DNA from: Phycisphaerales bacterium
GTDB taxonomy: Bacteria > Planctomycetota > Phycisphaerae > Phycisphaerales > UBA1924
Assembly: GCA_029260495.1 (NCBI GenBank)
Contig: JAJDDD010000020.1
Span: forward strand, 310,001 to 374,000
Reading direction: 5' to 3'
Length of the DNA: 64,000 bases
A model generated the notes under the pieces. That model did no database searches. It was not told where the DNA came from and was given only the letters and a program-made list of their open reading frames with translations. The position numbers and the translations under genes are program-made. Positions 8,173 to 22,739 of this stretch are shown here, one piece after another (the first letter of the stretch is position 1; the number at the start of each line of letters is the position of its first letter).

Positions 8173-8226
8173 TGGGGTAGGCGGCGGCGGTGAGGCTTCG
8201 TGCGCTGCACGCATATACTGTTGGCC

Positions 8227-9867
8227 ATGGCGCCTGGAAAGAACCCACTTAAGCTTTGGGACGGTTTCCGCCGGAATATACCGGCGCCGGATGGGATGGC
8301 GCCTGCATCCCGTGTGTTGCTGGTATGGCTTGCGCAAGTCGCCGTGGTGACCATCATCGCACGGATTCTTGCATTCCCACACTGGGCGCTACTTTCTGCG
8401 ATTGTTGCGCTGATGGTGGGCGTGTTGCTCTGTAGATGCTCGGGTAAATGGAGAATCGCTGGCTACTTGATGTGCGGCATGACGATCCTGGCGGTTGGCA
8501 GCGCTGGCGCTTTACTTACGATCGTGGATCATCGAGAGAGAGAGCGGATCAAGCTGCAAGCGCCAGAGCAGCATGATGGCGCGGCGCAAACGAAGAGTCT
8601 TGACGAACAGCGGCGACAGGGTGAGATGCTGGCGCAGATGCTCGAACTCGCTCGCCGGGAAAAGATGTCGGCAGCGGAGTTAGAAGAAACACTTCGCGCG
8701 GAGATTGAGCACGAATTTGCGGGGAAGCTTGCAGATGATGAGCGCGACGCTCGCGCTGCTGCGGAGAGGGCGGCGCGAGCCCTACTTGATGTGATGGATG
8801 TGCCTGGCATTGTGGAGGCGCTGCGCGAGAATGGCGGCAGGGCAATCGTCGATGCGCTTCTGACACGTTCCCCGAAGTCAGAGGCTGACAAAGCTGAAGC
8901 ACATCGGAATGTGTTGCAATGGGCGTATTTGATTGGAGATATCGAGCAAGCTGAGCGATCAGCGAACAACCTGCTCGCGTACAACGAGCACGATCTTGAT
9001 GCGATCAATCATCTTGGGCATATCTATATTGTGCGGGGCCAGTTGTCAGAGGCTGAGGCGCAGTATCACAAGCTGCTGGAGCGGGCGCCGGATGATGATG
9101 TTTGGCGCGCCATTGCTTATAGCAACCTCGGGCTGATTTACGAAACGCGCGGCGAGCTCGCCGAAGCGGAACAGATGCACCTCAAGGCGCTCGCCATTAA
9201 CGAAAAGTCAGGACGCCTCGGGGGCAAGGCCACCAACTATGGCAACCTCGGGGTGGTCTATCGAATGCGCGGCGAGCTTGATGAGGCAGAGGATATGCAC
9301 CGCAAGTCGCTTGCCATCCACGAAAAGCTGGGGCGCCTGGAGGGCATGGCCGCCGCCTACGGCAACCTCGGGGTGATTCATCAAACGCGCGGCGAGCTCG
9401 ACGAGGCGGAGGAGATGCTCCGCAAGGCGCTCGCCATCAACGAAAGGCTGGACCACAAAGAATACATGGCCGCCAATTACGGCAACCTCGGAGTGATCTA
9501 TGAATCGTGCAGCGAGCTTGATGAAGCGGAGGAAATGCACCGCAAGTCGCTTGCCATCCACGAAAAGTTGATGCATCTGGAAGGTATGGCCGCGAATTAC
9601 AACAACCTTGGACCGATCTATATATCGCGCGGCGAACTCGACGAGGCAGAGCGAATGTATCGAGGGTTGTTGGAGATTCACGAAAAGCTGGGACGCCTGG
9701 AAGGCATGGCCCGCGACTACGGCATTCTTGGGGCGATTTATTTAAAACGTGGCGAGCTAGAAGAAGCCCGGCGATTGTTGATTCAATCACGAGATTTGTT
9801 TGCACAGCTTGGCGCACAGCACATGGTCGAGAGGGCACAGGGATTGATTAACGGGCTAGCTGAATGA
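8227..9867 (+). CDS. Membrane-anchored TPR protein
   Basis: A 546-residue protein. Hydrophobic segments at about residues 29-50, 54-70 and 78-99 suggest membrane anchoring near the N-terminus. A charged Glu/Arg-rich helical region (about 105-190) follows, then TPR units. The last six units are nearly identical 40-residue repeats ('YGNLGVIY..RGELDEAEEMHRKSLAIHEKLGRLEGMAAN'-like pattern), the kinesin-light-chain-like TPR type that binds peptides and scaffolds complexes. ATG 8227 is preferred over an upstream in-frame ATG at 8200 because it lies closer to the hydrophobic part. It is divergent from the SnoaL-like gene. The partner is unknown. Confidence 0.8.
   Translation: MAPGKNPLKLWDGFRRNIPAPDGMAPASRVLLVWLAQVAVVTIIARILAFPHWALLSAIVALMVGVLLCRCSGKWRIAGYLMCGMTILAVGSAGALLTIVDHRERERIKLQAPEQHDGAAQTKSLDEQRRQGEMLAQMLELARREKMSAAELEETLRAEIEHEFAGKLADDERDARAAAERAARALLDVMDVPGIVEALRENGGRAIVDALLTRSPKSEADKAEAHRNVLQWAYLIGDIEQAERSANNLLAYNEHDLDAINHLGHIYIVRGQLSEAEAQYHKLLERAPDDDVWRAIAYSNLGLIYETRGELAEAEQMHLKALAINEKSGRLGGKATNYGNLGVVYRMRGELDEAEDMHRKSLAIHEKLGRLEGMAAAYGNLGVIHQTRGELDEAEEMLRKALAINERLDHKEYMAANYGNLGVIYESCSELDEAEEMHRKSLAIHEKLMHLEGMAANYNNLGPIYISRGELDEAERMYRGLLEIHEKLGRLEGMARDYGILGAIYLKRGELEEARRLLIQSRDLFAQLGAQHMVERAQGLINGLAE
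9118..9838 (+). repeat. 120-bp coding tandem repeat (six TPR units)
   Basis: Six successive 40-codon TPR units with very similar DNA, for example 'ggcgagctcgacgaggcgga' and 'gccatccacgaaaagctg' recurring every 120 bp. The middle four are closest to each other and the last is degenerate. Such conserved DNA suggests recent unit duplication or homogenisation. Confidence 0.8.
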
Positions 9868-9901: not shown

Positions 9902-10180
9902 CTACGGCGCCGCCGGCAGCTCCGCTCCATCGAGATAGGGCGCCAACTCCGGCTCGCGTAATGCTTCATCAAGATTCGTAATAGCCCGTTCGATGGCTTG
10001 GGTTGTGGCGGGGTAGTCATGCTCGGTGTGGTAGAAGTAGCGGGCGACATCGGTGTCGATGACGAAGATGCGGTCGGACTTAATATCGGGCATGCGGATC
10101 ATTTTGCCGACGGAGAAGTTGCGGACGGTCATGCGCTCTTCGCCGCCGTTGAGGTGGATGATGCGCTTGGGGATGAGGGA
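9902..10180 (-). pseudogene. Truncated copy of the 3' end of the exporter-secretin gene
   Basis: The minus strand encodes about 90 residues matching the last ~88 residues of the 1527-residue protein (12216-16799), from 'KRIIHLNGGEERMTVRNF' to 'LDGAELPAAP' plus TAG. DNA identity is very high; roughly 107 bases (about 10066-10172) appear identical to 12379-12485. No signal, start or upstream domain belongs to it. A weak in-frame GTG at 10204 gives an open frame, but it enters through a different gene's relic. I read this as a non-functional duplicated tail. Confidence 0.8.
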
Positions 10181-11087: not shown

Positions 11088-12128
11088 CTACGCCGCGAGT
11101 TTGGCGACGCCTACGTTGGCGACATCCTGTGTTGTGCCGGCGATGATGAGGACGTCGCCCTCATTCAGCACATGGGCGGGGGCTGGACGCATGACGAGCC
11201 CACCGTCATTTGATTTTGCAGCGACGAAGACGATGCGGGGGTGGTCGGCGCCGAAGTCGCTGATGGTTCGGCCGAGTTGGGGGCTTTGGCGAGTGATTGA
11301 GAACTCTGCGAACTGGAGGGAGTCGGCGTTGTGCTCATCATCACCAAAGAGGAGGCGGGCGAGTTCGGGGCGGACCATGCTTTGGGCGACGCCGTCGCCG
11401 CCGTAGCGCGAGGGGCTGATGACGATGGAGGCTCCGGCGCGGCGGAGTTTGTGGATGGATTCATCGCCTTCGGCGCGGGCGGTGATGGCGATATTTGGCG
11501 CAAGGGCGCGAGCGGAGAGGCAGATCATGGCGTTGGCGGCGTCGCAGGATGTGACGGCGGCGACGGCGGCGGCGCGTTTGACGCCGGCTGCGAGGAGGGT
11601 GTGGTCGTCGGCGGCGTCGCCGTCGAGGACGATGAAGCCTTCTTCCCGGAGTCTTGCGATGATGGTTTGGTTTGAATCGATGGCGACGGTTTCGAAACCT
11701 TCGACGGCGAGTTTGCGCATGACGCGCTGGCCGGTGCGTCCGAGGCCGCAGATGATGTGGTGATTTGACATCTTGCTTGCTTGCTTGATCATGCGGCTCT
11801 CCGGGTGCATGGCGAGGTTGGTGGCGTGCTGGATGAGTTGGGTGGCGGCGTATGAAACGCTGGCGATGCCGCCGATCATGAGGATGGCGGCGAAGCGCTG
11901 GCCGGCCTCGGTGAGTCCGTAGTCGCCGTAGCCGACGGTGGTGAGTGTGACGAGTGTGAAGAAGAGGGAGCGCCAGGTGGACCAGCCTTCGATCCACATG
12001 AAGCCGGCGGCGCCGAAGAGGATGACAGCGGAACACAGCAACAGGGACCGCTTAACCGCGGGGTTCCAGTTCGTCAGGAGCGCAATGAGCAGGGAGAGTC
12101 GGTCGCTCATGCATCGACTATCGGACAT
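11088..12128 (-). CDS. Potassium channel with TrkA-N/RCK domain
   Basis: A 346-residue protein. Two membrane helices flank a pore loop with the selectivity filter TVGYGD at about residues 64-69. The cytoplasmic part begins with a Rossmann motif 'HHIICGLGRTGQRVMRKLAV' (TrkA-N) at about 123-142 and ends with a TrkA-C-like region. This is the Kch/MthK-type architecture: a tetrameric K+ channel gated by ligand binding to the RCK domain. An internal ATG at residue 7 (12110) is an alternative start; neither has a clear ribosome site. It lies 87 bp downstream of the exporter-secretin gene on the same strand. Confidence 0.9.
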   Translation of the reverse strand: MSDSRCMSDRLSLLIALLTNWNPAVKRSLLLCSAVILFGAAGFMWIEGWSTWRSLFFTLVTLTTVGYGDYGLTEAGQRFAAILMIGGIASVSYAATQLIQHATNLAMHPESRMIKQASKMSNHHIICGLGRTGQRVMRKLAVEGFETVAIDSNQTIIARLREEGFIVLDGDAADDHTLLAAGVKRAAAVAAVTSCDAANAMICLSARALAPNIAITARAEGDESIHKLRRAGASIVISPSRYGGDGVAQSMVRPELARLLFGDDEHNADSLQFAEFSITRQSPQLGRTISDFGADHPRIVFVAAKSNDGGLVMRPAPAHVLNEGDVLIIAGTTQDVANVGVAKLAA

Positions 12129-12215: not shown

Positions 12216-15200
12216 TTATGGTGATTCCGGCAGCTGGGCTCCATCAAGATATGGCGCCAGCTCCGGCTCGCGTAATGCTTCATCAAGATTCATAATCGCG
12301 CGTTCGATGGCTTGTGTTGTCGCTGGGTAGTAATGCTCGGTGTGGTAGAAGTACCGGGCGACGTCGGCATCGATCACGAAGATGCGGTCGGACTTAATAT
12401 CGGGCATGCGGATCATTTTGCCGACGGAGAAGTTGCGGACGGTCATGCGCTCTTCGCCGCCGTTGAGGTGGATGATGCGCTTGAGGAGCAGGGCGCGGCG
12501 GAGGCGGGTGAGGTCCTGGGGAGAATGCAGAAGGATGGTGTAGCGTTGGCGGCCATCGGTGAGGGGTTGGTTGAGATCCCAGAGGAGCTTGCCCCATTCT
12601 TCGCGGCTGGCGCAGGGGATGGACATGATTTCGGGGACGGGTTCGGTGCCGAGCGCGCCGGGGCGCATGAGTTCGCGGTCGTAGGTGTAGGTGAGGGCGA
12701 GGGCGCGGTCGGGGTTTTGCGTGAAGAAGGATTCGAGGGCGGCGCCGTCGCCGAGCCTTGACATGAGGTGTTCGAGGAACTGGACGCGGTAGCCGGCGCT
12801 GGGGTCGGGCTCGAAGTAGATGATGCGGTCGTTTCCGACGCGGGCATCGGTCTGGAGGCGCTTGACGACTTCGTAGATCATGCGGTGGACGACGATGTCT
12901 TCGCTGGGGATGCGATCATCGACGAAGAGGGAGAAGGGCGGCTGTTGGGCGAGGGGGAAGTTTCGCTGGGCGACGTGGTCGGCGAGGGATTTATAGAGAA
13001 CGAGGCGTTTGTTTTTGAAGAGGAACTCGAGATCGAAGACTTCTTCTTCGCGAAGGCGGTAGGCATCGCGGAAGAGCTCGTTGCCGAAGGTGTCGAACTG
13101 GTCTTCGGTTTTGGGGATGGTGCGGCCGAGGGAGTCGCCGTCGGTGAGGACGTAGGGAGTGAGGACGATGATGACTTCGCGTTTGGCGGTGAGGCGTGAT
13201 TCTGACCGGAAGAGGGCGCCGACGAAGGGGAGATCGCCGAGGAGGGGGACTTTTTCTTCGATGACGGATTCGTCGCGTGAGACGAGGCCGCCGATGATGA
13301 AGGGGGTGTTGTTGGCGATGCGTGCGTAGGTTTGTACGCGGCGGCTTGAGATGGTGGGGGCGGAGGCGAGGAGGACGTTGTCAGCGTCGCGTATTTCGAG
13401 GTCGGCGCCGGGGACGCGGGCGGAGACAGTGGTGTCGATCTGCATTGAGATTTGGTCGCTGGCGGCGTCGATGCGCGGGCGGACGTTGAGGAGGATGCCA
13501 GTGGGGATGTAGCGGAAGTCGAATGCGATTTTGTTTGAGTTGCCGCTGGTGCCTTCCTGGCTGGTTGCGATTGGGATGTCTTCGCCGACGCGGATGGTGG
13601 CCTGGCGGTTGTCGAGCGTAAGGATGCTTGGGCGGGAGAGGATTTCGGCTTTGCCGTCGCGGATGAGGGCGCGGATTTGTGTGCGGAAGTTTGCAGCGAG
13701 GCTTTGGTTGTCGTCAAAGAGGAAGTCGAGGGTTTGGTTGCCGGCGGCGCCGGGGATGAGCGAGCCGAGAATGGCGCGTGCGGAGCCGTCGGCGAGTTGC
13801 CATTCGATGCCGAGCTCTTTGAGGCCGGATTCTGAGATTTCGAGGATCATCCCTTCGATGAAGACCTGGCGCGCGGGGACGTCGATGAGATCGTTGAGGA
13901 GTGAACGGACCTTGCTGGCCTGCTCGGGGTGGGCGGGGTGAGAGAGGAGCAGAAGCTGGGCGAGGGGGCCGGCGACGGTTTGGTTGGGGAGTTTGCTGGC
14001 GACGGAAGGGATGATGGTGAGGCCGCGGTTGTCGCGCCCGACTTGTTGCTCCTGGCCGATGAGCGTGGTGGCATCGGGATGGGGCGCGGGCATGGTGGCG
14101 ACGATGGGAAGACGGGAGAACTCGATGGTTTCGGGAGTTTGGTCGGCGGCGGCGACGATGGTGACGCCGACGGCGCGCAGGGCGGCGAGGGCTTGAGCAG
14201 CGTCGACAAAGCTGAGCTGGATTGTTTCTGCGTCAAGGTCGGCGACGGAGAGCGTCTCGCGCATGTAGTCGAGGCTGGCGAGGGCTTCGGCGACGGCGGG
14301 CTCGATGGCGGGCATGTCCGGGTTGACGACGACGGTTTCGGGTTTGATGAGAACGGCGTAGACCCAGAGCTGGGCGGCTTGTGAAACGAAGGAGCGATAG
14401 CCGAGCCGGATGACGCGCAGGCCTTCATCGGTTGAGCGAGCGATGATGTCCCCGCGCGCGACGCGGTCGGGAAGGGCAGGGAGCATGTCTGCGATGACGG
14501 GGCCGGCGTGGGCGTAGCCGAGCTCAGTCTGAAGGCGCAACTTGAGCGCGTCGATTATTTCCCCGATTTCAATGGGGCTGAGCTTGGGTAGGGCGTGGAG
14601 CTTGCCGGCGTCAGCAGGGAAACGCGAGATTTCAACTGTCTGGTTGGCGGCGCGAGCTTCACGGGCAGTGGGCTGATCTGCGGGATTGGGCTTCTTCTGA
14701 AGGACTTCAGTCTGCTCAAGAAGCTCAACCTGGGCGCGAAGCTGGGCGAGGCGATCCTGGGCTTCTTGTGTTTCGATGGCGTCGAGGAGCGCCTGCTGGG
14801 TTGCGGCGTCACTTTCCTCAGTCAGCCAGCCATGACTGACGCGCGGAGATTCCATTTGCACAGAGCGATCCGCGATTTTGGTTTCTGAAACGCAGGAAGT
14901 CGTGAGCGCGCCAACAAGCAAGGCGGCGCCGAGACATGAGGCAGCGGGACCGAAGCCATTGCTCGATTGCGGGGGAATCGGTGTTGCTGGCGCGGCGTCC
15001 TCGTTGTCTTCATCGTTTGATTGGGAGGGACTGTGACGAACGGTTTCGATTTCGACGATGCGACCTTCTGCGATGTGGATAATGCGATTGGCCATGTGGG
15101 CAATTTCGGGATCGTGGGTAATCATGACGACGGTCCTGCCGGCCATTTGATCGAGAATGTCGCGCATGATTCGCACTGAAGATTCGGGATCGAGTGAAGC

Positions 15201-16799
15201 GGTTGCTTCGTCGAGGATGAGGACGGCGGGATCGCGCAGAAGAGCGCGTGCGAGTGTGATGCGCTGCTTTTCGCCGCGAGAGAAGCGGCCGGTGATTTCA
15301 TCAGTGCTGGCGCCATATCCTGTGGGAAGGGCGTCGATGAAGTCGTGAGCTCCGGTGAGTTTGCAGACATCGACGATTTCATCGACGGTCGCGTTGGTGC
15401 GGGCGTACAAAAGGTTCTCGAAAATGGAGCAGTTAAAGAGGAAGACCTCCTGAAACGCGATGCCGACGCAGCGGCGCAGGCTGCGGACGGGCAGGGTGTC
15501 GGCGTCGGCGTCGTCAAAGAACATCTTGCCCTGCGTGGGACGATTGAAACGTGAGATCAGGCTGACGAGCGTCGTCTTGCCGGCGCCGCTGGGGCCGACG
15601 ACGGCGATGTGCTCACCTTGAGCGATGGAGAGATTGATATTTTCGAGGACGGGGCTGTTCTCGTCATAACCAAAGGAGACGTTGTCGAAGGTGATAGCGC
15701 CTTTGAGAACGAGCGGGCGATCGTCGGCGCTGTCACCCGCGCCGAGTTCTGTGGCTTCCTCTTCGAGCAGTTCAGAGATGCGTTCAATGCTCCCGGTGGC
15801 GCGGGCGAGATGGGCGGCGCCGGAGAGGACCTCCAGGACGGTGGGATAGAGCATGGTGACGTAGCCGAAGAACATGAAGAACTCGCCAACGGTCATGGTT
15901 CGAGTGACGACCTGCCAGGCGCCGAACCCGAGCAAAAGGACAGTGCCGACGCCGATGAGAAGGTCGGCGGCGACTTTCTGGGAAAAGTGGAAACGCTGGG
16001 TGCGAATCTGACTTCGGCGTGTGGCGTTGATGGCGCGGCTGAATTGCTGGCTTTCTCGGCGCTCAGCGGAGAAGCCCTTCACAACTTCGACACCGAGGAT
16101 GCGCTCGACGAGCGAGCCGTACACATCGGAAAGATGCTCCTGGGCCTGCGTGTGGCTGCGCTTGAGTGGAGCGTGAAAATATCGGTACGCAAGGAAGTGC
16201 AACGGGAGGACGAGAGCGCTGACAGCAGCGAGTTTCCAGTTCACCACGAAGATGATGATGAGCAGGATGTGAAACATGAGAACATTCAGAAGCAGAGTGG
16301 GGAACTTGTCCTGAATGAAGAGCTGAATTTTGTAGGTGTCATCAAGAACGCGCGAGCTGATGCGTCCGACCTGATTGGCGCGGTAAAAGTCAAGCCCAAG
16401 CCGCTGAAGGTGCTCGAAGAGCTCTGAGCGCTGCGCGACACAGAGATCTTCTGCGATGCGGACGGAAAACATGCGACTCGTGAAGAAGAAGACATTGCGC
16501 ACGACATAGAGAAGTGCGACACCGGGGAGAATGATCCACAGCAGGCGCCAGTTGCCCTCGACGCCGTCCGTGGGGAATACGTCATCGACGAGCACTTTGA
16601 GCGCGAAGGGGAGGACCATATTGGTTGCGGCGAGAGCAGTGAGAAGGAGCAGGACGAGCGCCAGAGGCCAGAAAAAGGGCCTGAGCATGCTGGTGAAAAG
16701 TTCGCCACCGGAGGGGCCTGCTTGTGATTCGCGTTGTGACAAGCTGGCCGCCTTCATGCTCCGAGGGGTGCGACTGTCGAGGGGACGCCGATCTCTCAT
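12216..16799 (-). CDS. ABC exporter fused to a secretin (single 1527-residue frame)
   Basis: Residues 1-590 form a complete ABC exporter half-transporter: membrane helices at about 35-310, Walker A GPSGAGKTT (402-410), a deviant signature FSRGE (506-510), Walker B 'VLILDEATASLD' (526-537) and H-loop 'MITHD' (559-563). An acidic, Pro-rich linker (590-615) leads to a hydrophobic stretch and a lipobox-like ALTTSC with Cys 636. After that come secretin N-type regions (about 740-960) and a secretin core (about 975-1215, from 'RQVFIEGMILEISESGLKEL' to 'REVIIVLTPYVLTDGD'). A ~310-residue C-terminal domain of unknown type follows. No in-frame ATG, GTG or TTG lies shortly before the lipobox, so an independent secretin start is not visible. 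It follows sthA after 117 bp. Either a true fusion or two genes merged by a lost base. Confidence 0.8.
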   Translation of the reverse strand: MRDRRPLDSRTPRSMKAASLSQRESQAGPSGGELFTSMLRPFFWPLALVLLLLTALAATNMVLPFALKVLVDDVFPTDGVEGNWRLLWIILPGVALLYVVRNVFFFTSRMFSVRIAEDLCVAQRSELFEHLQRLGLDFYRANQVGRISSRVLDDTYKIQLFIQDKFPTLLLNVLMFHILLIIIFVVNWKLAAVSALVLPLHFLAYRYFHAPLKRSHTQAQEHLSDVYGSLVERILGVEVVKGFSAERRESQQFSRAINATRRSQIRTQRFHFSQKVAADLLIGVGTVLLLGFGAWQVVTRTMTVGEFFMFFGYVTMLYPTVLEVLSGAAHLARATGSIERISELLEEEATELGAGDSADDRPLVLKGAITFDNVSFGYDENSPVLENINLSIAQGEHIAVVGPSGAGKTTLVSLISRFNRPTQGKMFFDDADADTLPVRSLRRCVGIAFQEVFLFNCSIFENLLYARTNATVDEIVDVCKLTGAHDFIDALPTGYGASTDEITGRFSRGEKQRITLARALLRDPAVLILDEATASLDPESSVRIMRDILDQMAGRTVVMITHDPEIAHMANRIIHIAEGRIVEIETVRHSPSQSNDEDNEDAAPATPIPPQSSNGFGPAASCLGAALLVGALTTSCVSETKIADRSVQMESPRVSHGWLTEESDAATQQALLDAIETQEAQDRLAQLRAQVELLEQTEVLQKKPNPADQPTAREARAANQTVEISRFPADAGKLHALPKLSPIEIGEIIDALKLRLQTELGYAHAGPVIADMLPALPDRVARGDIIARSTDEGLRVIRLGYRSFVSQAAQLWVYAVLIKPETVVVNPDMPAIEPAVAEALASLDYMRETLSVADLDAETIQLSFVDAAQALAALRAVGVTIVAAADQTPETIEFSRLPIVATMPAPHPDATTLIGQEQQVGRDNRGLTIIPSVASKLPNQTVAGPLAQLLLLSHPAHPEQASKVRSLLNDLIDVPARQVFIEGMILEISESGLKELGIEWQLADGSARAILGSLIPGAAGNQTLDFLFDDNQSLAANFRTQIRALIRDGKAEILSRPSILTLDNRQATIRVGEDIPIATSQEGTSGNSNKIAFDFRYIPTGILLNVRPRIDAASDQISMQIDTTVSARVPGADLEIRDADNVLLASAPTISSRRVQTYARIANNTPFIIGGLVSRDESVIEEKVPLLGDLPFVGALFRSESRLTAKREVIIVLTPYVLTDGDSLGRTIPKTEDQFDTFGNELFRDAYRLREEEVFDLEFLFKNKRLVLYKSLADHVAQRNFPLAQQPPFSLFVDDRIPSEDIVVHRMIYEVVKRLQTDARVGNDRIIYFEPDPSAGYRVQFLEHLMSRLGDGAALESFFTQNPDRALALTYTYDRELMRPGALGTEPVPEIMSIPCASREEWGKLLWDLNQPLTDGRQRYTILLHSPQDLTRLRRALLLKRIIHLNGGEERMTVRNFSVGKMIRMPDIKSDRIFVIDADVARYFYHTEHYYPATTQAIERAIMNLDEALREPELAPYLDGAQLPESP

Positions 16800-18884: not shown

Positions 18885-20831
18885 ATGTCGTTTAAACCTG
18901 GGAAGAGCGTCGGCGCGATGGCGGCGGCGATGGGAATCGGCGCCGTTGTGCTCATTGGGCTGGCGGCCGGCCGGACAGCATCGGCTGAAGGTGATCCGGC
19001 TGCGCGAGGCGGGCAGGTGCAACTGAACACCACGCTGGCGGATTTCTTCGAGCCGGGCACGCAGCCAATCCAGGCCGGCGATCCCTTTGTGCCGGTCTTT
19101 TCTGCGGTCGGATGCAGGAACTGCCACGGGAACTTCTTCAATAACGGCTTGCCGCTCGAAGGTGAACCCCTGCGCAACTGGGCCGGCAGCATGATGGGGC
19201 AGACGATCCGGGACCCGATCTTCCAGGCGGCGCTGACGATTGCAAACCAGGACGCAAACTTCGGCGGGGACTTGTGCCTGCGCTGTCATGCGCCTGGCGC
19301 GTGGGTGACGGGTCGCTCGACGCCCACAGATATGTCCGCGTTTGTGGATCCGTCAGACTTTGAGGGTGTGACATGTCACGCCTGCCATCGGTTTGTTGAT
19401 CCTGTTTATAAACCGGGTGTGAGCCCGCTGATTGATTTCGGCGTGCTGCGCGATCTGGAAACCAGAGGCGAGATGCTTCCAACACAAGTGGGCAATGCCC
19501 AGTTTGTCTTTGATATGGATGATCGCCGGCGCGGTCCATTTAACGATCTGGCGAATCCATTGATTCACGGCGTGCCCGCGGTCTTCTCGCCCTTCCACCA
19601 GACCGCAGAGTTCTGCGGACAGTGCCACGATGTCAGCAATCCAGCCTTCGAGCGCCAGCCCGACGGCACATATGAGCTCGGCGCGCTGGATGCGCCGCAT
19701 GCGACGCTATTGAAAGAGGACATGGTCCCCGAGCAGCGCACCTACAGCGAATGGCTGCACAGTGACTTTGGCAATGGCGGCGTGCAGATGAACGGTCGAT
19801 TCGGGGGCAATCATCCGACGGGCGTCATGGAGACCTGTCAGGATTGCCATATGCCTGATGTTGAATCTCCCGGGTGCGTCATCAATGGTTTCCCAGCGCG
19901 GCCGAACATGCCTCAGCACGCTCTCTCCGGCGCCAACACCTGGGTGCTGAAAGCGGTGCGCGATCTCTACGACGATTTCGAGACGAATCTATCTGATGAA
20001 ACGCTGGCAGATGGATTGGCGCGCGTGCAGGAAATGCACACGAACGCCTCAGACATGGACCTTTCCCACGATGGGGTCGATCTCAATGTGCGCGTCACCA
20101 ACATGACCGGACACAAACTCCCAACCGGGTATCCCGAGGGACGGCGGATGTGGCTGAACGTCAGGTTCTTCGACGAGAACAGTCAGTTGGTCGCTGAGCA
20201 CGGCGCCTATGACGAAGTCACAGCGACTCTGAACGAAGGCGACACCAAGATCTATGAAATGAAACTGGGTCTGACCGATTCGGTGGCGCAGGCGGTGGGC
20301 CTTCCTTCGGGCGAATCCCAGCATGTGCTGCTGTTCAATGAGGTGCTTAAGGACAATCGAATCCCGCCGATGGGCTTTACCAACGTGAACTTCGAAGCGA
20401 TTCAATCAGCGCCAATCGGCGCCGCGTATGCTGACGGTCAGCACTGGGATGACACAATGTTTGCCATCCCAGCAGGCGCTGAAACAGCAAGTGTGACGCT
20501 CTTCTACCAGACGACATCGAAGCGCTACATCGAGTTTCTGCGCGACGCGAACGTCACCAACAACCTCGGGCAGGTCGCCTACGACCAGTGGGAACTGCAC
20601 GGCAAGAGCGAGCCGGCGGTGATGGATCAGGTGTTGATCAGCTTTGTGAGCGGGATTTCGCCTGCGGACCTGAATGGCGACGGCCAAATCGGAGCTGCGG
20701 ACTTTGCGATTCTGCTCGGCTCGTGGGGACCGTGCCCGCCGGCGCCAACGCCTTGCGCTGCGGACCTCGACTCCGACGGAACAGTTGGATCAAGCGATCT
20801 TGCAGTTCTGCTGGGTCTGTGGGGCACATGA
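18885..20831 (+). CDS. Exported five-heme cytochrome c with dockerin-like tail
   Basis: A 648-residue protein with a signal peptide (hydrophobic 11-28, cleavage near 34). Five CxxCH heme-binding motifs are visible: CRNCH (about 77), CLRCH (131), CHACH (164), CGQCH (about 243) and CQDCH (about 323). The middle part is beta-rich. Two dockerin-like elements lie at the C-terminus ('DLNGDGQIGAADFAILLGSW' and 'DLDSDGTVGSSDLAVLLGLW'). The fold resembles cytochrome c554-type multiheme proteins of periplasmic electron transfer. The ATG is preceded by GGAGGAGCTGGGAG. A strong bidirectional terminator follows. Electron donor and acceptor are unknown. Confidence 0.85.
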   Translation: MSFKPGKSVGAMAAAMGIGAVVLIGLAAGRTASAEGDPAARGGQVQLNTTLADFFEPGTQPIQAGDPFVPVFSAVGCRNCHGNFFNNGLPLEGEPLRNWAGSMMGQTIRDPIFQAALTIANQDANFGGDLCLRCHAPGAWVTGRSTPTDMSAFVDPSDFEGVTCHACHRFVDPVYKPGVSPLIDFGVLRDLETRGEMLPTQVGNAQFVFDMDDRRRGPFNDLANPLIHGVPAVFSPFHQTAEFCGQCHDVSNPAFERQPDGTYELGALDAPHATLLKEDMVPEQRTYSEWLHSDFGNGGVQMNGRFGGNHPTGVMETCQDCHMPDVESPGCVINGFPARPNMPQHALSGANTWVLKAVRDLYDDFETNLSDETLADGLARVQEMHTNASDMDLSHDGVDLNVRVTNMTGHKLPTGYPEGRRMWLNVRFFDENSQLVAEHGAYDEVTATLNEGDTKIYEMKLGLTDSVAQAVGLPSGESQHVLLFNEVLKDNRIPPMGFTNVNFEAIQSAPIGAAYADGQHWDDTMFAIPAGAETASVTLFYQTTSKRYIEFLRDANVTNNLGQVAYDQWELHGKSEPAVMDQVLISFVSGISPADLNGDGQIGAADFAILLGSWGPCPPAPTPCAADLDSDGTVGSSDLAVLLGLWGT

Positions 20832-20996: not shown

Positions 20997-22739
20997 TCAG
21001 GGCGTGAGCGTCCAACGCGCAAGGAGGATGGCGAGATCGGCGGCGCCGACAAATCCGTCACTATTGAGATCCGTAACGCCGCCCAATGCCCCCCATGTTC
21101 CAAGCAGCATCGCAGCGTCAGCGCTCGCGATGACACCGTCTGTATTGATGTCGCCGATCCCGGCGTAGGTAATGACGAGCCGCTGATTCGGCGCCAGATT
21201 GGTCTTGATGACTGTTGATCCGTCAGGAAAGTCAAAGCGCAGCTCGTCGATGGAGGCTGCCGGGCCGAGTCCGAAGTGAGCGATGAGTTCGCTGGTACTG
21301 AGATAGCTGCACCCGCTGTCGACGAAGCGCGAGTGGATGACGCCGGCTGCGGTGAGCGTGAGTTTGGCGCCGATGCCGTTGGGCGCAAGATTGGAAGCGG
21401 GGCCGGTGTCGATCTCAACGATGAGCCAATCGCCCAGGCTGGCGCCATTGTCATTGCGCCAAAGCTGGAGTTCGCCGCCCCAGGAGAACGCGACAAAATC
21501 AAGATCGCCGTCGCGATCGTAATCGAGACTGACAAGCCCGCGGCCGGAGAGTGTGTGCTCGAAGCCGGCCTGCTGGGCGATTTCCGTAAAAACGCCGCCG
21601 CCGGCATTGAGAAAGACCTTGGCGCGTTCGTTAATGAAGTCCAGATGAGAACCAAAGCCGTTTACTTCGAGAATATCAACGAGCCCGTCGTGATTGACAT
21701 CCGCAGCGACGGTTCCCCATCCCCAGCCGCCATCGTCAACGCCGGCGAGCGCCGCTGTTTCCGTGAAAAAATCGGCGCCGGAGTTCAAATACAGTTTGTT
21801 GCCTTCACGTCCGATCGCGATTTCCTGATGGATCGACGTGACATACCAATCCATGACGCCGTCGTTGTCGAAGTCGGCGCAGGCTTGACCCATGCCGTTG
21901 GAGTCGAGCCCCGCTCCGGAAGCAGCTGTCATGTCGGTGAAGGTTCCGTCGGTGTTGTTAACGTAATACTTGCTGGTGTAGAAATCGCCCGCCAAAAGGA
22001 GTTCGGGCCAGAGGTCGCCGTTCATATCGATGAAGCGCGGGCTGAAGCCGTGTGTGTTGATGTTGAAAACGCCGGCCGCAACGGTGACATCTGTGAACGT
22101 TTCATCGCCATTGTTTTGGAAGAGACGGCAGCCTTCGCTGTTCTGCACCCAGCCGCCGACGAAGAGGTCAAGATCACCGTCGCAGTCATAGTCGCCGAAT
22201 GAGGAGCCAAAACCGTCTGCCATCGCCGGGCTGACGAAGTCAACACCGGCGGCGGTTGCGACGTTGGTAAAGGTTCCGTCGCCGTTGTTCTTGTAGAGTC
22301 GATGATGCCCCGGCGCATAGCCCGAAGCAAGCGTGCCTACGCTGGTGACAAAGACATCAAGATGGCCGTCACGATTGAAGTCTCCCACCGAGGCGCCCAT
22401 GCCCCAGTGTGCCTCGGTGAGTCCCCATGCAGCCGATTGATCGGAAAACGTGCCGTCCGTGTTGTTGATGAAGAGTCTGTCCGTCGTGCCGGTCTGCACA
22501 ACGAAGAGGTCGGGCCAGCCGTCGTTGTTGAAATCGCCCACGGCCCCGCCGGCGACCATCGAGTTTCCCGGGAAACCCGCCATCGTGCCGGGGTGAATAA
22601 TGTTGATTCCCGCAGCCGGCGCCTGATTTGAAAACATCACCTGAGCGCGCGCAGCCGGCGCATCAATAATGACGCCAACTGAACAAGTCATTACAGCGCC
22701 AGCGCGAAGAAAAACACAGGCCCTCTGATCGAAGCCCAT
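20997..22739 (-). CDS. Exported FG-GAP/ASPIC-UnbV protein with dockerin-like tail
   Basis: A 580-residue protein with a signal peptide ending near 'ARAQ' (residue 33). FG-GAP/VCBS-type repeats follow, with Asp-rich loops such as 'GDFNNDGWPDLFV', 'GDFNRDGHLDVFV' and 'GDYDCDGDLDLFV'. From about residue 440 an ASPIC/UnbV domain is recognisable ('NGIGAKLTLTAAG' through 'DFPDGSTVIKTNLAPNQRLV'). The last 50 residues carry a dockerin-like pair ('GDINTDGVIASADAAMLLGT', 'DLNSDGFVGAADLAILLARW'). Such proteins are extracellular propellers, abundant in planctomycetes, of mostly unknown role. The start ATG 22739 directly precedes the signal peptide. Confidence 0.88.
   Translation of the reverse strand: MGFDQRACVFLRAGAVMTCSVGVIIDAPAARAQVMFSNQAPAAGINIIHPGTMAGFPGNSMVAGGAVGDFNNDGWPDLFVVQTGTTDRLFINNTDGTFSDQSAAWGLTEAHWGMGASVGDFNRDGHLDVFVTSVGTLASGYAPGHHRLYKNNGDGTFTNVATAAGVDFVSPAMADGFGSSFGDYDCDGDLDLFVGGWVQNSEGCRLFQNNGDETFTDVTVAAGVFNINTHGFSPRFIDMNGDLWPELLLAGDFYTSKYYVNNTDGTFTDMTAASGAGLDSNGMGQACADFDNDGVMDWYVTSIHQEIAIGREGNKLYLNSGADFFTETAALAGVDDGGWGWGTVAADVNHDGLVDILEVNGFGSHLDFINERAKVFLNAGGGVFTEIAQQAGFEHTLSGRGLVSLDYDRDGDLDFVAFSWGGELQLWRNDNGASLGDWLIVEIDTGPASNLAPNGIGAKLTLTAAGVIHSRFVDSGCSYLSTSELIAHFGLGPAASIDELRFDFPDGSTVIKTNLAPNQRLVITYAGIGDINTDGVIASADAAMLLGTWGALGGVTDLNSDGFVGAADLAILLARWTLTP

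Follow-up and report, generated by a model that had tools for sequence, protein, structure and literature searches.

To our knowledge, ABC exporters and secretins have been described as components of separate machines. An ABC exporter is a dimer, and a secretin ring comprises a dozen or more subunits. The closest described systems are type I secretion (HlyB-HlyD-TolC), in which the ABC exporter has an HlyD adaptor and TolC as its outer-membrane partner, and the systems of the type II secretion system (T2SS) secretin GspD and the type IV pilus secretin PilQ, which have a secretion ATPase gene (T2SSE) nearby. For a bacterial polyprotein, the closest case is FbcH of Bradyrhizobium japonicum, a cytochrome b/c1 polyprotein that is cut at an internal signal sequence. 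A literature search found no description of an ABC-secretin fusion, which is weak evidence given its thin coverage of subscription papers; the word 'secretin' is absent from the accessible part of PMC8277102, and PMC4827864 presents outer-membrane pore proteins as only rarely fused to other domains. In this study, we describe a gene that encodes both modules in a window of 64,000 nucleotides from a Phycisphaerales bacterium (assembly GCA_029260495.1, contig JAJDDD010000020.1, positions 310,001 to 374,000 of the forward strand). Its product is probably a natural polyprotein from which signal peptidase cutting yields two cooperating proteins, an ABC exporter of the inner membrane and a secretin of the outer membrane.

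The gene occupies positions 12216-16799 of the minus strand as a single open frame, with an ATG at 16799, a stop at 12216-12218, and 1527 codons for a protein of 1527 aa. A Pfam search of the protein gave three domains above the curated cut-offs: ABC_membrane at residues 47-317 (E = 1.4e-39), ABC_tran at residues 385-534 (E = 1.8e-29), and Secretin at residues 1044-1218 (E = 4.6e-42). The ABC transmembrane domain (PF00664) is encoded at 15849..16661 (-) and the nucleotide-binding domain (PF00005), with the signature FSRGEKQ in its translation, at 15198..15647 (-). An acidic, Pro-rich linker (residues 591-611; 14967..15029, -) is followed by an internal signal peptide (14892..14966, -) with its hydrophobic core (h-core) at residues 622-632 and a lipobox-like ALTTSC ending at Cys636 (codon 14892-14894). 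Beyond it lie the predicted mature N-terminus and a family-specific periplasmic region (residues 637-955; 13935..14891, -), which is conserved and has little match to solved secretins. A GspD/PilQ-like last N-domain and the secretin barrel (residues 956-1222, with PF00263 at 1044-1218; 13134..13934, -) align to solved secretins. A sequence-only reading of this DNA had claimed an ABC exporter and a secretin in one unbroken frame, separated by an acidic linker, a hydrophobic stretch, and ALTTSC. The open reading frame and the Pfam domains agree with the former claim, and all three separating elements are present. About 2 kb downstream, a 100-aa ORF includes 267 bp that repeat the 3' end of the gene (9913-10179, -, versus 12227-12493, -; 92.5% identical), a partial duplication.

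The protein ends in a domain of about 300 residues (1223-1527; 12219..13133, -) that was absent from the sequence-only reading and is well conserved across the family. This domain matched no Pfam model, and its sole hit among PDB sequences had an E of 0.4, which does not count as a match. Its structure model was fair (mean pLDDT 76.8, pTM 0.77), and a Foldseek search with that model gave a best E of 0.22 and no clear fold match, which is not proof of a new fold. Diguanylate cyclase was considered as a relative and not accepted (VIA-align best Z 3.5 over 108 residues, rmsd 4.9). The model of the 894-residue secretin was poor (mean pLDDT 58.9).

The uninterrupted ABC-secretin frame was found in at least 24 genomes, including that of the window. 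Full-length fusions in other genomes, the check named by the sequence-only reading, are conserved in 23 genomes besides the window: four from a contig scan (L006-L009), 15 from related genomes (G009, G062, G098, G079, G067, G063, G083, G071, G064, G085, G100, G094, G076, G087, and G069), two from a class-wide profile search (G409 and G432), and two from genomes of the phylum to which the L010 genome belongs (G848 and G881). Compared with the window, the ABC half of these 23 is 40-60% identical and the secretin half 37-62% identical. Two more genes are fused across the junction or cut short: G075 has a frame break within the ABC part, and G093 is truncated by a contig end. The frame break of G075 (L051:6086-11069) is either an error or decay. 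In another fused ABC (L067:7086-11783), the H-loop region reads MITTNRD versus MITHDPE in the window; hence, the ATPase of that protein may be altered. That an assembly or sequencing error joined two genes is refuted by these relatives and retains practically no probability: G075 demonstrates that frame breaks occur in this gene, but nothing at the junction points to one, and the same junction is open in 24 separate genomes, so the fusion is not an indel, a chance event, or an assembly artefact.

The family also occurs in other arrangements. Of the 15 loci in the contig scan, eight (L006-L013) match the secretin half, and seven of these eight also match the ABC half; L006-L009 are single frames, L011-L013 are two adjoining genes, and L010 is a secretin alone. 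The L011, L012, and L013 records are titled Actinomycetota or Actinomycetes and have the same coordinates as G114, G123, and G104 of the window's class; the titles look wrong. Among the matches listed from 101 related genomes, there are at least 16 uninterrupted fusions in addition to G075 and G093, separate neighbouring genes in at least three genomes (G042, G059, and G017), and a secretin alone in at least two (G091 and G073). A profile of the C-terminal domain (A1) matched 31 of 397 genomes of the class. Seventeen of them carry the fusion, of which G311 and G379 were classed by frame length alone and G355 has coordinates identical to those of the L008 genome; seven have separate neighbouring genes; and seven have no adjacent ABC gene. 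In three of these last seven (G399, G410, and G433), the contig ends inside the gene or immediately ahead of it.

Genomes from beyond the class were searched as well. A sample of the phylum gave 11 matches in 392 genomes, of which eight belong to the class. The match in G549 is fragmentary, and G502 encodes a different secretin, whose 19-kb locus shows no ABC match. Five of 288 genomes from the phylum of the L010 genome (labelled Verrucomicrobia) matched, the L010 genome included, and two of these, G848 and G881, encode fusions with ABC_membrane, ABC_tran, and Secretin domains. Among 398 genomes from the phylum of a Marinosulfonomonas genome, the single match was a secretin, and its 20-kb locus gave no ABC match. 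No family match was found in five unrelated genomes, a sample that says nothing by itself.

Where the two halves are separate, they often remain linked. Separate genes that adjoin with the ABC first were found in G017, G059, G384, and L011-L013, and the secretin comes first in G042 and in the distant G705 of the phylum sample, whose ABC exporter lies directly downstream. The sequence-only reading had named separate genes in close relatives as the result that would speak against a fusion. Such genes do exist in these genomes, but they do not make the fusion an error. In the secretin tree, at least six changes between the fused and unfused states are needed with 38 rows and seven with 42 rows, counts in which parsimony cannot separate gain from loss. 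G705, G985, and L010 are long branches in this tree, and G549 (a fragment), G093 (contig break), G433 (contig end), G311, G379, and G1098 are absent from it. With the distant unfused rows as the outgroup, a short account is a single fusion event, after which the ABC part was separated or lost several times. This direction is supported by the long tails at the linker position of three separate ABC proteins, which extend 93 (G017), 86 (G059), and 101 (G384) residues past the ABC match; the tails in G042, L011-L013, and G705 are 12-25 residues. G848, G881, and G914 are nested in the clade of the window's order in the 42-row tree, which suggests transfer between phyla.

The segment between the halves was then compared by a simple, loose rule, a hydrophobic core followed by a Cys- or AxA-type site, in 24 fused rows: the window, 21 relatives (the uninterrupted set without G848 and G881), G075, and G093. 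Each of the 24 rows has a core with a cleavage-type motif behind it. Cys-type sites account for 13 of these rows; among the control helices, 138 transmembrane segments from the ABC parts of the same proteins, 2 have one. The sole motif in the remaining 11 rows is an AxA-type site; motifs of this type occur after the internal core in 12/24 rows and in 56/138 control helices (p = 0.5), so the AxA evidence has no weight by itself. Read by eye, the site in G848 is of the AxA type. In separately encoded secretins the N-terminal signal is this same segment, and 12 of 15 pass the rule; the signal segments of L010, L011, and L013 fail it. Within the Cys clade, the residues after the Cys match between the fused and the separate forms, CVSETKIADRSVQMESPRVSHG in the window and CSSTTKTDTNIAMEQPRVANG in G326 (MESPRVSHG versus MEQPRVANG after the Cys). 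The 'lipobox' ALTTSC is therefore the secretin's own signal peptide, now internal. As a lipobox it is imperfect: ALTTS|C follows the core and passes the loose rule, with Thr at -3, an internal signal, and no Lys or Arg within the 12 residues before the core. The sites of one genus with Pro at -2 (NPGC, YPGC, and PPAC) are imperfect as well.

The sequence-only reading had left two alternatives, a lasting covalent link and cleavage at the lipobox. If the protein stayed uncut, the internal hydrophobic segment would be a seventh membrane helix, and ABC exporters would be tethered under the secretin ring. The topology would permit this, with a cytoplasmic ATPase, one helix, and periplasmic domains; a tether would fix the assembly; and AxA-type motifs are no commoner after this helix than in the control helices. 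However, the Cys-type sites are kept far beyond the control level, the segment is the terminal signal of the unfused relatives, genes separated on several branches indicate that the tether is not essential, and the size of the ring would force at least a dozen ABC halves on each pore. We therefore consider an uncut protein unlikely. On sequence evidence, cleavage is favoured over the lasting link, since a signal-peptidase-type site is kept, with Cys in some clades and AxA in others, and unfused relatives have this segment as a genuine N-terminal signal.

Two proteins could also arise from an internal translation start, with the open frame merely coupling their expression. L006-L009 have an ATG 7-10 codons before the h-core, and G071 and G098, among others, have a start codon with a ribosome-binding-like motif. 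An ATG with such a motif lies within 45 codons of the core in 5/23 fused and 8/15 separate genes (p = 0.08), a contrast that is not firm. By contrast, the stretch of the window gene from M569, in the ATPase part, to residue 627, a TTG inside the h-core, contains no other ATG, GTG, or TTG, and neither the window gene nor G432 has one of these codons in the 45 codons before the core; the separate secretin of G017 does have GAGGAG ahead of its ATG. The linker also appears to be translated. Its dN/dS was 0.33-0.58 in six comparisons among G079, G067, G063, G083, and G071, which are not independent, and the upper bootstrap limits were 0.67-0.93. The remaining five comparisons had saturated synonymous sites in some regions or short linkers, and one interval reaches 1.28. 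Values mostly below 1 in close fused pairs, and below 1 in the g64 genus, point to a translated linker. Given this linker and the missing start codon upstream of the h-core, internal initiation is unlikely in the window gene. As an explanation of the family it is a still weaker candidate than an uncut protein, and initiation of this kind is possible in some relatives, especially L006-L009.

No third partner was conserved around the gene in the loci compared, where neighbour clusters span at most four loci besides the gene itself. The neighbour calling dropped overlapping ORFs, so genes may have been missed; the two-gene locus L047 is missing from the clusters, probably for this reason. No T2SSE match lies nearer than about 90 kb to the window gene, although the genome has 14 and each of its other four secretins has one within about 16 kb. 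None of the TolC-type OEP genes of the genome lies within 190 kb on the contig.

Several neighbours are local to the window or to a few loci. In L006-L008, a closely spaced series of genes leads up to the fusion gene from upstream and comprises OEP, HlyD, an ABC ATPase, a pair of FtsX/MacB_PCD genes, and a small gene of lipoprotein-like type; this set was assigned by a Pfam scan in L007 and by clustering in L006 and L008, with L009 outside the clusters. In L011-L013, a DUF1571 gene, of which only the end is on the contig in L011, precedes the separate ABC-secretin pair, with a weak LolA_like match in L013. Among the loci compared, the OEP-HlyD-FtsX set occurs only in L006-L008 and DUF1571/LolA_like only beside L011-L013. 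In the window, a K+ channel gene with TrkA_N and TrkA_C domains (11088-12128, -) lies directly downstream of the fusion gene; the 27 other loci compared contain no relative of its product at E <= 1e-3. Two large predicted exported proteins (18885-20831, +, and 20997-22739, -) carry DxNxDGxxxxxDxAxLL-type C-terminal motifs that by eye resemble dockerin-like repeats, and a 555-aa ORF (8200-9867, +) is, by eye, rich in TPR-like repeats.

The secretin lacks an adjacent family ABC in 11 loci (L010, G091, G073, G261, G326, G399, G410, G433, G914, G985, and G1098); a contig end falls within or shortly upstream of the secretin gene in G399, G410, G433, and G985. Among the matches listed for seven of these genomes (G261, G326, G399, G410, G433, G091, and G073), there was no full-length match to the family ABC above about 31% identity; for L010, G914, G985, and G1098, the ABC was sought in the locus. 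The secretin thus need not always work with the ABC. In six of the 11 loci, a gene for an MscS-type channel adjoins the secretin. It lies downstream of the secretin in L069-L072, where the products form one family (69-73% identical to the L071 protein), downstream in L010, and upstream in L080; the L010 and L080 proteins share 41% identity, and each has a cyclic-nucleotide domain. Among 33 ABC-linked loci, the same three queries gave an MscS-type gene in one (L041), 2.7 kb away and on the other strand. Fisher's test gives p = 4e-4 for this difference, a value that overstates the evidence because the six loci represent about three lineages.

Near the ABC-less secretins of L069, L070, and L071 is a gene for a protein that joins an NMT1_3 periplasmic-binding domain to TrkA_N; it is downstream of the secretin in L069 and L071 and upstream in L070, and ion-channel helices are weakly matched in L069. 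The lone secretin of G1098 (L086:7846-11274) is followed on the opposite strand by genes for two proteins, a small cNMP_binding-like one (below the cut-off) and a sulfate permease that has STAS and cNMP_binding domains.

Loci with a secretin and no ABC would be expected if the halves were merely co-expressed, with the ABC flipping a lipid or drug at the inner membrane and the secretin serving something else. This is improbable, as the linkage survives fusion, separation, and reversed order, and MscS takes a place beside the secretin in six of the 11 ABC-less loci as if an inner-membrane partner were needed. Together, the loci suggest an inner-membrane companion for the secretin, a transporter or a channel, which is usually the ABC exporter and sometimes MscS. 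A broader proposal, which we put forward tentatively and would not yet rely on, is that the family may be a secretion-system class of its own. A secretin with a new C-terminal domain would take the inner-membrane partner that its lineage offers, mostly the ABC as a signal-peptidase-cut polyprotein and MscS where the ABC is missing, and no separate adaptor would be needed because the periplasmic domains of the secretin would dock on the partner.

For the window gene, a polyprotein cut by signal peptidase would operate as follows. Translation would produce the ABC exporter half-transporter first, and its ATPase would stay in the cytoplasm. The internal hydrophobic segment would then be the signal sequence that directs the remainder of the chain via Sec to the periplasm. 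Cutting at the end of the segment would be performed by signal peptidase II in the Cys forms, including the window, or by signal peptidase I in the AxA forms. The ABC part would dimerise in the inner membrane, and the released secretin, a predicted lipoprotein in the window's clade, would form a ring in the outer membrane. Powered by ATP, the ABC protein may expel a substrate from the cytoplasm, and the secretin, equipped with periplasmic domains of its own and the extra C-terminal domain, may pass it across the outer membrane, which would make a two-membrane route with neither a conserved adaptor nor a TolC-type channel. The domain order fits the topology needed, namely a cytoplasmic ATPase, a signal sequence, and periplasmic and outer-membrane domains. 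Against this explanation, a 1:1 polyprotein is mismatched with a dimeric exporter and a many-fold ring. The sequence-only reading had raised an unfamiliar export machine, and conservation in many genomes together with the unfused neighbours lends support to that idea.

Although the modules are known, their pairing and the way in which it is made match no system known to us. The presence of the fusion in some planctomycete and related bacteria points to an undescribed route out of the cell. A conserved pair made as one protein in many genomes would add an export route, as well as an example of a bacterial polyprotein matured by signal peptidase, perhaps that of type II. It would raise the directly testable question of how a dimeric pump meets a many-fold ring, and the exchange of the ABC for MscS in some lineages provides a second handle on what the gate passes.

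Compared with type I secretion, the window protein has an ABC exporter of the same fold (PF00664 and PF00005) in a two-membrane cell, and its ABC part matches the HlyB and MsbA models of NCBIfam, with scores under the respective cut-offs. However, it contains no HlyD domain, and no HlyD gene lies consistently beside it; in the neighbourhoods compared, HlyD is near the gene in L007 and, by clustering, in L006 and L008 only. Its outer-membrane partner is a secretin instead of TolC, whose type of gene was sought at the locus and on the contig. Membership in type I secretion was rejected, as the adaptor and the TolC-type partner were not found with the gene. The barrel and the last N-domain resemble those of GspD and PilQ and align to their solved structures, but the window secretin has its own N-terminal region, a C-terminal domain of about 300 residues, and an attached ABC exporter, and T2SSE is not nearby. 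The NCBIfam GspD equivalog scored 181.8 bits against a cut-off of 351.35, and the window secretin is below the cut-off of every NCBIfam secretin model among those listed. Identity as a T2SS or type IV pilus secretin was rejected on these scores and on the lack of a nearby T2SSE. With no adaptor, TolC partner, or secretion ATPase beside the gene and a secretin below the cut-offs, the protein is a member of neither type I nor type II secretion. FbcH, an unrelated protein, is the likeness in mode of production: a bacterial polyprotein in which cutting at an internal signal peptide, predicted in the window, yields an inner-membrane protein and an exported partner, the latter in the window being an outer-membrane pore that in one clade is a predicted lipoprotein. 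Judged by its parts, the window protein would combine the exporter of type I secretion with the gate of type II secretion.
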